A model generated the notes under the pieces. It was not told the origin of the DNA and searched no databases. It saw nothing but the letters and a program-made list of their open reading frames with translations. From Peribacillus simplex NBRC 15720 = DSM 1321 (GTDB lineage: Bacteria; Bacillota; Bacilli; Bacillales; DSM-1321), in assembly GCF_002243645.1 (NCBI RefSeq), contig NZ_CP017704.1, positions 3,242,001 through 3,306,000 of the forward strand: a DNA stretch of 64,000 bases. Direction: 5' to 3'. Shown piece after piece: positions 1-55,111 of the stretch. The first letter of the stretch is position 1. Each line of letters opens with the position of its first letter. A program made the position numbers and the translations under genes.

Positions 1-539
1 TTGATATAACGATTATGCTCAAGGATGCAGGTTTCGATGTGGTTGGACATGCCCGTAACGGCGAGAAGGCGATTGAATTGGCGCATGCACTACAGCCGGA
101 TCTCGTTTTGATGGATATAAAAATGCCTAAAATGAATGGGCTTAAGGCTAGCGATGTGATATCCAATACCTTTCAGATTCCGGTCCTGCTTTTAACTGCA
201 TTCAGCCAGCGTGACTATATCGACGAGGCGAAGCGCGCGAATATCGTCGGATATCTTGTAAAGCCAATTACGGAGGCGAATTTGATTCCGGCAGTGGAAA
301 TAGCTTTGCTGCAAGCAGCCAATACAAAGAAGTATCAGGAACGAAATGCTCAATTGGATGAAACGCTCACAAATCGTAAAGTCATTGAAAAGGCAAAAGG
401 AATCATCATGAAAAGGAAGAATGTAACAGAGGAAATCGCTTACAATAAGTTGAGAAGGCTAAGTATGGATAAGCAGCTTTCCATGGAGACGGTGGCACGC
501 CGAATCATTGCAAATGATCAAAAACAAGTAAATAGATGA
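1..539 (+). CDS. eutV: ANTAR-domain response regulator, EutV-like (5' end cut off by window)
   Basis: C-terminal 179 codons of a two-component regulator of the AmiR/NasT class. The frame is open from base 3, so the ATG at 15 is internal and about 15-20 residues lie outside the window. The receiver domain shows LVLMDIKMP with the phospho-acceptor Asp, then LLLTAF and LVKPI. The C-terminal ANTAR helices (AKGIIMKRKNVTEEIAYNKLRRLS) are the RNA-binding part. In Firmicutes, EutV with the kinase EutW prevents termination in eut leader RNAs when ethanolamine and B12 are present. The gene lies directly before a terminator and eutHABC, which supports EutV; other ANTAR regulators cannot be excluded by sequence alone. 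The kinase should lie just upstream. Confidence 0.8.
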   Translation, partial: DITIMLKDAGFDVVGHARNGEKAIELAHALQPDLVLMDIKMPKMNGLKASDVISNTFQIPVLLLTAFSQRDYIDEAKRANIVGYLVKPITEANLIPAVEIALLQAANTKKYQERNAQLDETLTNRKVIEKAKGIIMKRKNVTEEIAYNKLRRLSMDKQLSMETVARRIIANDQKQVNR

Positions 540-50567: not shown

Positions 50568-51011
50568 TTAATTACCCAAGTCTTCAATTTGTTTTGCCAA
50601 TCCAGTTATATTATCGATTGATTTCATAATCTCTGAGTCTTCTAATGCATTAGGATCAATTTGACCATTTTCAATATTATTTAGATATAATTCAATGCCC
50701 TCTGAAAGCTGTTGATTTGAGCTGACGATCTTCTCGTGGATGCCTTCAGCGATTTGGGGTGGTTCAGTTGCATTGAATTCTTCAATCTCCGTTTTCATCA
50801 ATTCCAGTTCTTTTTCAAGATTTGCTCTTGCATCAGCATTCGTGACGGCGTCTTGTGACAATGCGGGCACCTCATTGGAAAAATCCTTAACGGTATTTAC
50901 ATACTCCGTAGCATTATCTGCATACTCCAATGATGAATTGACTTCTCCCAAAAGCGAGCATCCGCTTAATGTAAGGATGGACAGTACAGCAATGGTCATT
51001 ATTTTTTTCAT
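50568..51011 (-). CDS. DUF6376-like lipoprotein (possibly YybP-like)
   Basis: 147 residues: lipoprotein signal peptide with LSGC (Cys18), then a helical, acidic domain (NSSLEYADNATEYVNTVKDF, LEKELELMKTEIEEFNATEP). This resembles the DUF6376 group, and from memory B. subtilis YybP, whose gene gave the yybP-ykoY riboswitch its name; that link needs a search. The start ATG 51011 follows GGAGG. It lies 34 bases after the kinase-like gene on the same strand and so probably shares its riboswitch-controlled transcript. Confidence 0.7.
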   Translation of the reverse strand: MKKIMTIAVLSILTLSGCSLLGEVNSSLEYADNATEYVNTVKDFSNEVPALSQDAVTNADARANLEKELELMKTEIEEFNATEPPQIAEGIHEKIVSSNQQLSEGIELYLNNIENGQIDPNALEDSEIMKSIDNITGLAKQIEDLGN

Positions 51012-51045: not shown

Positions 51046-51651
51046 TCAAATAGGCAGAAATCTCTTTTTGTAAATCGCTGCAATGGAATTCAGTATGAAG
51101 CCAGGGATCTTCTTCGGGAAAAATGACTTCGAATAGAAAAGGTGAAATGCACTTTTCAAGTCGTGCCACTGATTGCAGGATTTCACTTGCTTAAACCTTG
51201 CAACGTCAATGATCTTCACCTTTTTTTCGGAAGTGATGAAGATGTTTCGTAAATGGATATCCGAAGGATTCAATCCCTCTTTCCTTGCCAATTGCAGAGC
51301 ATGGTCTATCTCCGCGATGTTTTCTTCCGTTATCGGGATTCCCAATGTTAAACATTCAAAAAGAGTGTTGCCTTCAATATGATCTATAACCAGGTAATTT
51401 ACCCCCGCATCATATAAGGTTGGATAGTATTCGATGGATTGGACGGTTTTGTATATTTCAGCTTCAATTTTAGCTGTGTGAGTATGATCCGGGAAAAACA
51501 CTTTTAGTGCTTTATTGGTGGAATGTATTCTGAATACATATGCGCTGCGGCCTTTTCCGATTAGTGATAAAGATGGGTCGGCATCAAGCAATATATGCTT
51601 TTTATCATCGGAAATCTTAACGCTTTGAGCTAATTCATTATAGTTCTGCAT
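51046..51651 (-). CDS. RIO/Ser-Thr-kinase-like protein (YrzF-like)
   Basis: 201 residues of a compact kinase fold. The glycine loop is GKGRSAYVF (32-40), the ATP-binding Lys is Lys50 (ALKVFF), a helix-C Glu is in KIEAEIY, the catalytic loop is DIHLRNIF (Asp131, Asn136), and the metal Asp is in IIDVARF (Asp149). All key residues are present, so it may be active; the target is unknown. The frame extends to 51687, but ATG 51651 follows GAGGTG. It is the first gene below the yybP-ykoY riboswitch and its terminator, so manganese probably governs its expression. Confidence 0.8.
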   Translation of the reverse strand: MQNYNELAQSVKISDDKKHILLDADPSLSLIGKGRSAYVFRIHSTNKALKVFFPDHTHTAKIEAEIYKTVQSIEYYPTLYDAGVNYLVIDHIEGNTLFECLTLGIPITEENIAEIDHALQLARKEGLNPSDIHLRNIFITSEKKVKIIDVARFKQVKSCNQWHDLKSAFHLFYSKSFFPKKIPGFILNSIAAIYKKRFLPI

Positions 51652-51684: not shown

Positions 51685-51727
51685 CAAAAAAGACGGTATA
51701 ACCGATTATTGGTTATACCGTCTTTTA
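51685..51727 (-). terminator. Riboswitch-controlled terminator
   Basis: Perfect stem AAAAGACGGTATAACC / GGTTATACCGTCTTTT with a seven-base loop and a U-run. The segment ACCAAUAAUCGG of its loop and 3' arm is complementary to CCGAUUAUUUGGU in the aptamer (one bulge), giving a mutually exclusive antiterminator. Confidence 0.85.
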
Positions 51728-51734
51728 AAAATTA

Positions 51735-51848
51735 AAAGACCTCACCAAATAATCGGCAAGGTCTTGCAAACAACTAAAATCAGTTGCCAATAAAGCCGAG
51801 GATTCAATCCTGTACTGACGACTTTATTGTATAGCTACTCCCCTTAAC
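51735..51848 (-). ncRNA. yybP-ykoY (manganese) riboswitch aptamer
   Basis: On the minus strand the conserved elements appear in order: GGGGAGUAGC (51843-51834), GUCGUCAGUAC (51822-51812), then GCAAGACCUUGCC (51767-51755) and GGUGAGGUCUU (51746-51736). These are the diagnostic loops of the yybP-ykoY class, which binds Mn2+. It is followed by a terminator with an alternative pairing and by the kinase-like gene. Members usually precede manganese exporters, TerC proteins or YybP. Confidence 0.85.
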
Positions 51849-51877
51849 AGAAGGATTCTTATAAGTTATATACAGTA

Positions 51878-51907
51878 ATTATATAGGTTATTGCCTCGAT
51901 CCGTCAA
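51878..51907 (-). promoter_or_regulatory. Sigma-A-type promoter of the riboswitch transcript
   Basis: TTGACG (51907-51902), 18-base spacer, TATAAT (51883-51878), about 25-30 bases before the aptamer begins. Bases 51908-52240 otherwise hold only AT-rich sequence and the upstream region of the autolysin gene. Confidence 0.72.
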
Positions 51908-52240: not shown

Positions 52241-55111
52241 GTGAAGAAATTAATTATACCAACTTTCTGTTTTGCAGTGTTGTCTACAGTTGCTTTCGAA
52301 GAAAAAATATCTGCAGCTCCACTACATGCTGAACAGGCCAATATTGAAGACGTCATGTTTGTAGATGTGAATTCCGGTTCGCTCAATATGAGAAAAACCG
52401 GGGCGGAAGGTGCAAGCATAGTTGCAAAGCTGGCAAATGGCACACAGGTAACGGTGTATTCGGAATCTAAAGGCTGGGCGAAGATCAAAGCCAACGGAAA
52501 AGATGGATATGTTAGTACCAAGTATTTATCGGCAACAAAGCCAGGGACTTTAACGAAAGCTGCAGTAACCATTAAAACGACAACGAAATATGTGAATTTG
52601 AGCACAGGTTCACTAAAAATGCGAAAAAGCGGCAGTGATAGTGCCGGCATAGTCGCGAAGCTGACAAGGGGCACACAGGTGGCGGTGTATTCGGATTCCA
52701 AAGGCTGGGCGAAGATCAAAACCAATGGAAAAGAAGGATATGTCAGTACCAAGTATCTATCGGCAACGAAGCCAGGAACGGTAACCAAAGCTACGGCGAC
52801 CGTTAAAACGACAACGAAATATGTGAATTTGAGCACAGGTTCACTTAATATGCGAAAAAGCGGTAGTGATAGTGCCGGCCTGATCGCGAAGCTGACAAGA
52901 GGCACACAGGTAACGGTGTATTCGGAATCGAAAGGCTGGGCGAAAATCAAAGCTAATGGAAAAGAAGGATATGTCAGTACCAAGTATCTATCGGCAACGA
53001 AGCCAGGAACGGTAACCAAAGCTGCGGCAACGGTTAAAACGACAACAAAATATGTGAATGTCAGTACGGGTTCACTTAATATGCGAAAAAGTGGAAAAGC
53101 TACCGCAAGCATTGTGGCAATACTTTCAAAAGGAACGAAAGTGACGGTTTATTTGGAATCGAAAGGCTGGGCGAAAATCAAAGCCAATGGAAAGGACGGA
53201 TATGTCAGCACCAAATATCTGTCTGCTGCAAAGCCAGGATCGGGATCAACGGCAGCCACACCTGAAAAAACGACGACAAAATATGTAAACGTAAGCTCTG
53301 GAACGCTCAATATGAGAAAAAGCGGATCGGAAAGCGCGAGCTTGGTCGCGAGGCTTTCAAAAGGAACGAAAGTGACGGTCTATTCGGAATCCAAAGGCTG
53401 GGCCAAAGTCAAAGCAAATGGAAAAGACGGCCATGTCAGTGCCAAATATCTATCGATAACAAAACCAGGAACGGAAACGAAGCCTTCCATACCTGAAAAA
53501 ACGACGACGAAATATGTAAACGGAAGCTCTGGAACGCTCAATATGAGAAAAAGCGGGTCGGAAAGCGCGAGCATAGTCGCAAAGCTGTCAAAAGGAACGG
53601 AAGTGACGGTGTATTCGGAATCCAAAGGTTGGGCGAAGATCAAGGCCAATGGGAAGGATGGATATGTCAGTACTGCCTATCTTTCAACGACAAAGCCTGT
53701 AACGGATTCCAAACCATCCATACCTGAAAAAACGACGACTAAATATGTAAATGTCAGCTCGGGTTCTCTGAATATGCGGAATAAGCCGTCAGATAGTGCT
53801 TCCGTCATTGTGAAATTGGCAAGGGGTGTAGAGGTAGAAGTCATCTCGGAATCAAATGGCTGGTCAAAAGTTAAAGCGTATGGCGGAGAAGGTTATGTCA
53901 GTACGCAATATCTATCAGCAACGAAGCCTGGTTCTTTACCGGGGCTGAATCCGGACAAAGAAGAAAACACGGTAGTTAAATATGTAAATGTGAATGATGG
54001 CTCCAGTCTGAATATGCGGTCTGCTGCATCAGCTTCCGCTTCAATTATAGCCAAGCTTATAAACAATACGGCCGTAACGGTGTATTCAGAGTCTAATGGC
54101 TGGTCAAGAGTCACGGCCAATGGAAAAACGGGATATGTAAGTTCACAATATTTAACGGTCAAAGCACCGGAAGGTCCAGGAAGTTCGAATGGATCGATAA
54201 TCAGGATTGATAAAGAGTATAATCTTTCGATGGAAAAAATGGTTGAAATTCAAATGGCCGTAAATGGGCAAACGGATAAAAAGTATAAAACCTACATACG
54301 TGAAGATGGGCTAACTTTAATCAATTCAACAAAAGGTACGGTAAAAGGAACCGGATGGCGTGTCAGGGGCGGAGCTGGATCTAATTATTGGGTAGTCGGT
54401 CCAGTCAGCAATAATCAATCTATGAATATTAAATCAAAAGTAAAGGGCTCTGACGGATACTATTGGTATGAGGTGGACTATAACAAGACATGGGTAAATG
54501 CCAATCCGGAAGATATAGAATATAATCTCAACCCAATTAATTTTGTGAATGATCCAATCGATTCATTTCAATTCGTCAAGCTCTCCCAAGTCACCAGTAT
54601 GAACGTTTCTGAAGTGAATAATAGAATCCTTTCAGGTAAGGGAATTTTACAAGGCCAAGCTGCAACCTTCACTGCGGCAGGGGAAAAATATGGGGTCAAT
54701 GAAATCTACCTGATTTCACATGCTTTGCTGGAGACCGGGAATGGCACTTCTCCGTTAGCGACTGGCGTAAAGGTGAGCGGGAAAACGGTCTATAATATGT
54801 ATGGAGTGGGAGCCTTTGACGGAACGGCGGTAAGCAGCGGTGCTCAATACGCCTATAATGCAGGCTGGTTCACTCCGGAAGCGGCCATCATAGGCGGTGC
54901 CGAATTCATCGCCAAAGGATATATCTCTGCTGGACAGGACACGCTTTACAAAATGAGATGGAATCCTACAGCTGCAGAGAAATATGGATATGCTTCACAC
55001 CAGTATGCAACTGATATTGGCTGGGCAACAAAACAAGTGAAACAGATTTATAATTTGTATAGTTTATTAGATTCCTATAAATTGACGATTGAAGTTCCTA
55101 AGTACAAATAA
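52241..55111 (+). CDS. Autolysin: eight SH3-type repeats plus glucosaminidase domain
   Basis: 956 residues. Signal peptide (about 1-27), eight bacterial SH3 repeats starting near residues 40, 113, 189, 266, 343, 420, 496 and 577, a linking domain (about 650-780), and a LytD/FlgJ-type N-acetylglucosaminidase domain (about 785-945; SHALLETGNGTSPLATGVKV includes the catalytic Glu). SH3 repeats bind wall peptides or glycans, and the enzyme cuts glycan strands. Repeats 2-6 are nearly identical. Start is GTG 52241 after GGGAGAATGAG. It lies divergent from the riboswitch operon; a strong terminator follows. Confidence 0.9.
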   Translation: MKKLIIPTFCFAVLSTVAFEEKISAAPLHAEQANIEDVMFVDVNSGSLNMRKTGAEGASIVAKLANGTQVTVYSESKGWAKIKANGKDGYVSTKYLSATKPGTLTKAAVTIKTTTKYVNLSTGSLKMRKSGSDSAGIVAKLTRGTQVAVYSDSKGWAKIKTNGKEGYVSTKYLSATKPGTVTKATATVKTTTKYVNLSTGSLNMRKSGSDSAGLIAKLTRGTQVTVYSESKGWAKIKANGKEGYVSTKYLSATKPGTVTKAAATVKTTTKYVNVSTGSLNMRKSGKATASIVAILSKGTKVTVYLESKGWAKIKANGKDGYVSTKYLSAAKPGSGSTAATPEKTTTKYVNVSSGTLNMRKSGSESASLVARLSKGTKVTVYSESKGWAKVKANGKDGHVSAKYLSITKPGTETKPSIPEKTTTKYVNGSSGTLNMRKSGSESASIVAKLSKGTEVTVYSESKGWAKIKANGKDGYVSTAYLSTTKPVTDSKPSIPEKTTTKYVNVSSGSLNMRNKPSDSASVIVKLARGVEVEVISESNGWSKVKAYGGEGYVSTQYLSATKPGSLPGLNPDKEENTVVKYVNVNDGSSLNMRSAASASASIIAKLINNTAVTVYSESNGWSRVTANGKTGYVSSQYLTVKAPEGPGSSNGSIIRIDKEYNLSMEKMVEIQMAVNGQTDKKYKTYIREDGLTLINSTKGTVKGTGWRVRGGAGSNYWVVGPVSNNQSMNIKSKVKGSDGYYWYEVDYNKTWVNANPEDIEYNLNPINFVNDPIDSFQFVKLSQVTSMNVSEVNNRILSGKGILQGQAATFTAAGEKYGVNEIYLISHALLETGNGTSPLATGVKVSGKTVYNMYGVGAFDGTAVSSGAQYAYNAGWFTPEAAIIGGAEFIAKGYISAGQDTLYKMRWNPTAAEKYGYASHQYATDIGWATKQVKQIYNLYSLLDSYKLTIEVPKYK
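52579..53730 (+). repeat. Direct DNA repeats encoding SH3 units (about 228-231 bases each)
   Basis: Units beginning with the codons for TTTKYVN occur at about 52579, 52807, 53038, 53271 and 53499. Stretches such as TATGTCAGTACCAAGTATCT recur unchanged, so the copies duplicated recently and copy number may vary between strains. Confidence 0.85.

Follow-up and report, generated by a model that had tools for sequence, protein, structure and literature searches.

A P2-less yybP-ykoY-type riboswitch that probably governs two serial terminators before kinase-like and DUF6376 genes in Peribacillus simplex

Introduction

Riboswitches for Mn2+ are among the commonest metal switches. A leader carried by a soil relative of Bacillus, Peribacillus simplex NBRC 15720 = DSM 1321, raises the question of how such a switch would come to stand before a gene for a kinase-like protein, and of what the terminators that follow its aptamer would contribute to control. 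The leader lies within a 64,000-nucleotide stretch of contig NZ_CP017704.1 (positions 3,242,001 to 3,306,000), termed here the window; coordinates given below are positions within it unless stated otherwise. An earlier note on this DNA had proposed a Mn2+-sensing yybP-ykoY riboswitch with a single terminator, followed by a RIO/YrzF-like kinase gene and a DUF6376-type lipoprotein gene, and had called the kinase an unusual target. In the accessible portions of the open-access literature, the targets given for Mn riboswitches are TerC, exporters, YybP and unknown transporters, and we found there neither a Mn riboswitch with a kinase target nor one with two terminators under one aptamer. As developed below, the leader is likely to be a P2-less yybP-ykoY (Mn2+) riboswitch in which a single aptamer governs two serial intrinsic terminators before the kinase-like and DUF6376 genes.

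Architecture of the leader and its operon

All elements lie on the minus strand, in the order promoter, P2-less aptamer, terminator T1, terminator T2, ribosome site, kinase-like frame and DUF6376 frame. The promoter-like sequence TTGACG-18-TATAAT (51907-51878), which the earlier note had rightly placed above the aptamer, agrees with the consensus at 11 of 12 positions, and sites of the form TTGACN-16..18-TATA[ACT]T were found in 54 of 65 riboswitch-linked relatives vs 1 of 1300 shuffles. The aptamer (51755..51845), identified from the order of its motifs, a leader model described below and a class core kept among relatives, comprises the P1.1 5' strand AAGG (51845-51842), the L1 motif GGGGAGUAGC (51843-51834), the L3 region GUCGUCAGUAC (51822-51812) and the 3' strand GCAAGACCUUGCC (51767-51755); the loops quoted in the earlier note are all found on this strand, where it had located them and in the order of the yybP-ykoY type. 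The fold of the leader has a z of -8.28, and none of 200 shuffles reached a value as low.

The hairpin that had been described as a perfect terminator corresponds to T2 (51726-51688), a near-perfect hairpin with a 16-bp stem and a U-tract extending to 51686. A further terminator, T1 (51764-51737), had been overlooked; it has GACCUU in common with P1.1 of the aptamer, and because it overlaps the aptamer 3' strand, the leader contains two terminators in series. This alters the reading of the complementarity reported earlier between the 3' segment of the aptamer and the terminator: the complementarity is real, but the segment is part of T1, which is itself the canonical terminator. The mutually exclusive pairing is likewise borne out by an exact 9-nt match between the two apexes (51756-51748 with 51710-51702), although it constitutes only the outer half of a predicted antiterminator joining T1 and T2. 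Inside the apex pair lies a second exact 9-nt pair (51740-51732 with 51728-51720). As predicted, the antiterminator pairs the T1 apex and 3' arm with the T2 5' arm and apex: the outer portion of strand A, at the T1 apex (GCCGAUUAUUUGGU, 51744..51757), would pair with the T2 apex (51713-51701; outer portion of strand B, ACCAAUAAUCGGU, 51701..51713), and its inner portion, formed by the T1 3' arm and U-tract (GUCUUUUAA, 51732..51740), with the base of the T2 5' arm (51728-51720; inner portion of strand B, UUAAAAGAC, 51720..51728).

Downstream, the kinase-like gene (51046..51651, 201 aa) starts with ATG preceded by GAGGTG, and the DUF6376 lipoprotein gene (50568..51011, 147 aa) follows it. A promoter between riboswitch and kinase gene, which the earlier note had named as evidence against its proposal, was sought in a promoter scan of the minus strand from T2 to the kinase start codon; no promoter-like site was found there, and an internal promoter for the kinase gene was rejected. 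Past the DUF6376 gene, a promoter-like site matching at 12 of 12 positions (50525-50496, minus strand) precedes frames 50442-50014 and 50013-49642, which suggests that the operon ends there. Elsewhere in the window, a plus-strand frame of 956 aa (52241-55111) contains many SH3-type repeats as judged by eye, and its start is overlapped on the opposite strand by a 308-aa frame.

Assignment to the yybP-ykoY class

Nothing in the window reaches an Rfam gathering score. In a permissive search of 401 bases, the leader scored 28.2 bits with the class model, RF00080, vs a gathering score of 45, and the window site is absent from the matches listed for RF00080 in a whole-genome search; the three other sites listed in this genome also fall below gathering, at 42.2, 36.8 and 29.9 bits. 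The TerC riboswitches of this genome, two in number and P2-bearing, likewise miss the cut-off in that search. The covariance search that the earlier note had proposed as a check therefore fails at the gathering score, yet the same model misses 20 of 20 related leaders. Indeed, the RF00080 gathering score was reached by none of these 20 kinase leaders and by none of 10 other P2-less leaders but by 9 of 10 leaders with a longer L1-L3 gap (P2), so that the Rfam miss is a property of the model. An unrelated family, RF02634 (EF3314_EF3315), scores about as well as RF00080 in the permissive search; identity as this sRNA was rejected, since 33.2 bits falls far short of that family's gathering score of 100 and the match contains many non-standard pairs.

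A covariance model of our own, built from 37 leaders including that of the window, gave 125.3 bits on the window, a value that is high by construction, and 68-93 bits on six riboswitches outside the model. The class core of L1 GGGGAGUAGC, L3 CGUCA and 3' strand GC[AG]AGACC occurs in order in the window, and 64 of 65 riboswitch-linked relatives, all but locus L099, retain GGGGAGUAGC, CGUCA and GC[AG]AGACCT. With the class core present in 64 of 65 and RF00080 failing all 20 related leaders scanned, the proposition that there is no real riboswitch was rejected. The P1.1 3' strand is common to aptamer and intrinsic terminator (T1), as in the class; a four-helix junction with P2 is lacking, for the gap of about 12 nt between the L1 and L3 motifs leaves no room for P2. 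The crystal structures of yybP-ykoY riboswitches described in the accessible text of PMC6754395 display a four-way junction, and a member from Streptococcus pneumoniae is described in the accessible text of PMC9495176 as a three-way junction; P2 therefore may not define the class, and its loss alone is not new. The earlier claim of a yybP-ykoY-type riboswitch accordingly holds on the strength of the core motifs and of our own model (in which the window is included), and the element represents a known riboswitch class in a widespread variant form. Judged by its sequence, its ligand would be Mn2+.

Conserved predicted pairing between the two terminators

For comparative analysis, 67 leaders were assembled, comprising the window, 65 relatives and the Spo0M leader of the same genome (66 kinase leaders plus one). 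Both T1 and T2 are present in 66 of the 67, as parsed automatically in 61 and judged by eye in five; L099, whose aptamer is degenerate, is the sole leader without both hairpins. When GACCUU was withheld, as P1.1 would withhold it, every one of the 66 leaders gave 10 nt or more of pairing between the T1 remnant and the T2 5' half (median 19 of 25). Pairing over at least 15 nt was obtained in 63 of 66, vs 84 of 330 and 73 of 330 after shuffling of either part; in two leaders (L143 and L154) the predicted fold retains the T1 apex hairpin instead.

Cognate apexes also pair better than non-cognate ones, at -11.6 kcal/mol vs -8.9 kcal/mol, and none of 20,000 permutations was as good. With 13-18 representatives less than 90% alike, 0 of 2000 permutations were as good in each draw; smaller sets weaken the test (7-11 representatives: up to 21 of 2000), and trimming of the apex ends lets p rise to at most 0.04 at 14-18 representatives and at most 0.43 at 5-7. 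In an alignment of 31 rows, 86.9% of antiterminator cells are paired vs 26.5-52.5% in slid controls, and changes on both sides are found in 9 of 19 antiterminator pairs. For example, columns 12-68 hold A-U 12 times, G-C 10 times and G-U six times, a pattern that neither hairpin alone explains. Five antiterminator measures were reached by 0-2 of 500 shuffles, a test in which related rows can exceed shuffles even without structure. Pairing is weak halfway along the apex helix, where columns 16-63 are unpaired in 15 of 30 cells and columns 17-62 in 18 of 31. The inner helix GUCUUU/AAAGAC is paired in 88.2% of cells. Co-variation within T2 is strong, and within T1 it does not go beyond shuffles.

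A proposed mechanism and its alternatives

In the switching scheme that we favor, GACCUU would enter T1 when Mn2+ is scarce, and most transcripts would end there; T1 would at the same time sequester the antiterminator strand, so that polymerases reading through would meet a free T2 and stop again. When Mn2+ is present, the aptamer would dock, P1.1 would retain GACCUU and T1 would be blocked, whereupon the freed T1 apex, 3' arm and U-tract (GCCGAUUAUUUGGU...GUCUUUUAA) could pair with the emerging 5' arm and apex of T2 (UUAAAAGAC...ACCAAUAAUCGGU). T2 would then also be blocked and the operon read, one decision opening two gates. Termination at both T1 and T2, like this order of folding, is what the leader's architecture would predict, and an arrangement of one sensor with two gates would be expected to lessen leakage at low Mn2+ rather than to sharpen the dose curve.

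Predicted folds place constraints on the scheme. The energies are -22.5 kcal/mol for finished T2, -22.0 kcal/mol for the antiterminator and -16.8 kcal/mol for T1 alone; locking GACCUU does not keep the full leader from favoring T2 (-27.2 kcal/mol). Because the energies do not favor the antiterminator over finished T2, switching must be kinetic, and on a kinetic model the antiterminator must form before the T2 3' arm emerges when Mn2+ is high. Additionally, a transcript halted at the T2 apex takes the antiterminator fold even without the lock (-22.2 vs -16.8 kcal/mol for T1 alone), from which it follows that, at low Mn2+, T1 has to act, or still be in place, by the time T2 emerges.

The same energies would suit a rival arrangement, an ordinary Mn2+ riboswitch with T1 as its one working terminator. 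T2 would then serve, unregulated, as a back-up or attenuator, and the complementarity would be a leftover of hairpin duplication. In many non-kinase leaders the arms of T2 do resemble those of T1, as duplication would give, and in 290 of 330 tries a non-cognate T2 part still finds 15 nt or more of pairing with the T1 remnant. Such an origin would nonetheless leave the compensatory T1-T2 co-variation unaccounted for, and a strong terminator that is always active would silence the gene, yet T2 is kept in 65 of 66 kinase leaders; we consider this arrangement unlikely. The complementarity might instead act while the switch is OFF, the two finished hairpins meeting in a loop-loop or kissing contact, and it is indeed richest at both apexes; this we regard as highly improbable, since the predicted T1 loop is often only 4 nt and the conserved inner helix GUCUUU/AAAGAC sits in the arms, which would play no part in a kissing contact. 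Finally, switching might proceed as described but with an aptamer variant that senses another divalent metal. Variants of yybP with altered specificity are expected by Sherlock and Breaker (PMC7266159, accessible text), and the three-way-junction member of S. pneumoniae is reported to bind Ca2+ more tightly than Mn2+ in vitro (PMC9495176, accessible text). Against a change of ligand stand the near-constant GGGGAGUAGC, CGUCA and GC[AG]AGACCT of 64 of 65 leaders and the occurrence of the same P2-less type before TerC genes in 40 of 99 survey cases, which make it rather improbable. The single Mn2+ aptamer with two regulated terminators is the likely explanation and the reading carried forward here.

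Relation to known systems

With the yybP-ykoY riboswitches (RF00080) of the Lactococcus lactis type, as represented in the accessible texts of PMC11087558 and PMC6754395, the leader shares the L1 and L3 motifs, the exchange between P1.1 and terminator, a promoter-proximal position and an expected ON switch; it differs in lacking P2 and in possessing a second terminator and a conserved T1-T2 antiterminator. For L. lactis there is experimental evidence that aptamer and terminator exchange the P1.1 3' strand (PMC11087558, in part). The ykoY riboswitch of H. halodurans is, in what is accessible of PMC10898510, likewise a Mn2+-responsive ON switch with an intrinsic terminator, as seen by in vitro transcription, but a single natural terminator is described for it and its target is TerC. 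The S. pneumoniae mgtA Mn2+ riboswitch has a Ca2+/Mn2+ ATPase as its target, and the portions of text available on it do not mention two terminators. A 324-nt leader of the yybP-ykoY class stands before yybP in Bacillus licheniformis (PMC3871023, in part).

A further parallel is with tandem riboswitches of the pseudo-cooperative kind, in which two serial terminators also precede one operon; in those systems, however, each terminator has an aptamer of its own (PMC9481103, accessible text), whereas in the window one aptamer appears to serve two. That Mn2+ riboswitches are lacking among tandem arrangements is called surprising in the same survey, and the text of its table lists no single aptamer with two platforms (PMC9481103). 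Two terminators under one aptamer would, if confirmed, represent another route to a tight OFF state.

Association of riboswitch, kinase and DUF6376 genes

The earlier note had proposed to look for the same order of riboswitch, kinase and lipoprotein genes in other genomes, and this order was indeed recovered in 30 of 36 genomes of the genus when coordinates were compared by hand. Among the nearest kinase relatives (the best 80 of 238, which make up the 80 named loci), a riboswitch motif lies at most 1.5 kb upstream of the kinase gene in 65 of 80; the leader model added five, giving 70 of 80 with a Mn-riboswitch match upstream. One of the five (L118) lies just upstream, and four (L119, L127, L133, L137) lie at 1.5-2.0 kb with a TerC gene between. 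On the same strand in an even genome sample, compared by hand, the riboswitch precedes 11 of 23 strong kinase homologs vs 0 of 13 weak ones. A chance kinase neighbor was rejected on these three comparisons. Of 59 parsed leaders, 45 have a T2 that ends no more than 62 nt from the kinase start. The DUF6376 gene adjoins the kinase gene in 25 of the 80 (best 80 of 238), after it in 21 and before it in four, and 6 of 18 DUF6376 genes in the even sample follow a riboswitch.

Riboswitch-bearing rows are spread throughout the kinase tree (64 of 79, at least nine changes; the labels predate the five added matches, and L090 was left out), which suggests that the link is old or has often been exchanged. 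The kinase is thus, when set against the targets in the accessible literature, unusual as the earlier note had held, but its recurrence in 70 of the 80 nearest relatives (best 80 of 238) shows that it is no oddity of one genome; it is a recurrent and apparently undescribed target of Mn riboswitches.

Several loci at the margins of this pattern deserve mention. Of two genus genomes that lack a DUF6376 match, one (L032, the place of L099) has a degenerate aptamer and the other (L037) only a T2-like relic. At L037 / L144 (Bacillus massiliglaciei) the kinase gene has a T2-like hairpin upstream and no aptamer match, the leader having apparently decayed. In genus g4 (L041, L044, L040), a TerC gene with a P2-bearing Mn riboswitch is followed, a few hundred bases on, by a more distant kinase homolog, and at L041 a terminator-like hairpin, read by eye, seems to separate the two genes. 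The assembly that holds L128, titled Pseudomonas sp. ISL-84, looks mislabelled or contaminated, its kinase grouping with Cytobacillus.

The kinase-like and lipoprotein products

The kinase-like frame (51651-51046) encodes the catalytic set claimed for it, with a Gly loop, a VAIK-type Lys, the catalytic Asp, the Asn and the metal-binding Asp; G32, G34, K50, E63, D131, N136 and D149 are invariant in 47 kinase-family sequences. PF00069 is matched by 46 of 47 family members at E <= 0.01 and is best or among the best, although the window protein itself scores 26.6 bits, below the cut-off of 31.7. Other families matched at E <= 0.01 are ABC1 (12 of 47), WaaY (6 of 47), APH (4 of 47) and RIO1 (PF01163; 4 of 47). 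Identity as a RIO kinase, as the earlier note had suggested, is not supported, the window protein having no PF01163 match and only 4 of 47 family members matching, vs 46 of 47 for PF00069. Profile searches of the PDB place Ser/Thr kinases nearest, S6K1 included (best 3.7e-7).

Protein kinases usually carry D-F-G where the window protein has D-V-A, a departure that, together with a length of only 201 aa, a subthreshold PF00069 score and the scattered ABC1, WaaY and APH matches, would suit a small-molecule or lipid kinase or a pseudokinase. We regard this as a serious if less probable option, compatible with the RNA explanation, given that PF00069 is matched by nearly all members, that S6K1 and other Ser/Thr kinases head the PDB matches and that the seven catalytic-set residues are invariant. 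The product is best described as an unassigned member of the protein-kinase superfamily with putative kinase activity.

The claim of a DUF6376-type lipoprotein is upheld by PF19903, which frame 51011-50568 matches with 140.7 bits (cut-off 27.3). B. subtilis, examined as a control, also gave a DUF6376 match above the cut-off, and its YybP is probably a lipoprotein of this type. The products would have a part in handling manganese at the envelope, in view of the repeated occurrence of the kinase family next to genes for TerC and for DUF6376 (probably YybP).

Two further kinase observations were made. At L191 (G045:C38), a P2-less Mn riboswitch and a His/Lys-rich frame of 57 aa precede a different protein kinase of 227 aa, with a PF00069 score of 74.3 bits on its first 120 residues; since this kinase is unrelated to the present family, it hints that manganese-controlled kinases arose more than once. 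A distant kinase paralog cluster occupies G000:C1 5331457-5344573, with two matches inside one 396-aa frame.

Distribution across Bacillales

Across the order, the 37-leader model yielded 138 riboswitch matches, distributed over 60 of the 61 genomes surveyed. P2 was judged in this survey by the L1-L3 gap alone, and 130 of the 138 entered the count of second terminators, those left out being four loci, L036, L282 (no nhmmer hit) and two without a measurable gap. A second terminator follows 84 of 99 P2-less vs 6 of 31 other Mn riboswitches in the 61 genomes; in shuffled downstream DNA the corresponding counts are 58 of 396 and 19 of 124, about 15%. Cognate T1-T2 pairing in the 84 was better than in 1000 of 1000 shuffles in every draw, including the smallest (23-25 representatives less than 85% alike). 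The two-terminator form is therefore general to the P2-less type, TerC and Spo0M leaders included, rather than confined to kinase leaders. TerC genes stand behind 40 of the 99 P2-less cases, and a Spo0M-type gene is the first recognized gene in 13.

As RF00080 under-annotates the P2-less form, part of the manganese regulon of Bacillales may so far be unseen. A broader synthesis, put forward tentatively, is that a large P2-less Mn2+ subclass of Bacillales, with one sensor and two gates, drives a kinase family that would form, together with YybP, TerC and small basic proteins, a manganese signaling module of the envelope, coupling manganese to phosphorylation through RNA. The kinase family offers in any case a concrete entry to the function of YybP-type lipoproteins and to a possible link from manganese to phosphorylation.

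Other genes found behind P2-less riboswitches add to the variety of this subclass. In the same genome, a P2-less riboswitch with T1 and T2 (L003 1505-1624, C1:5408969-5409088) precedes a Spo0M-like gene. FbpB-type small basic proteins come first behind P2-less riboswitches in 7 of 99 cases (L175, L190, L201 and others), and the one such protein tested matches PF13040 with 40.2 bits, a possible manganese-iron link. At L217 (G062:C3), two Mn riboswitches (330-438 and 838-951) share a strand at a spacing of about 0.5 kb; a DUF1232-type frame separates them, and FbpB-like and Spo0M-like frames come after.
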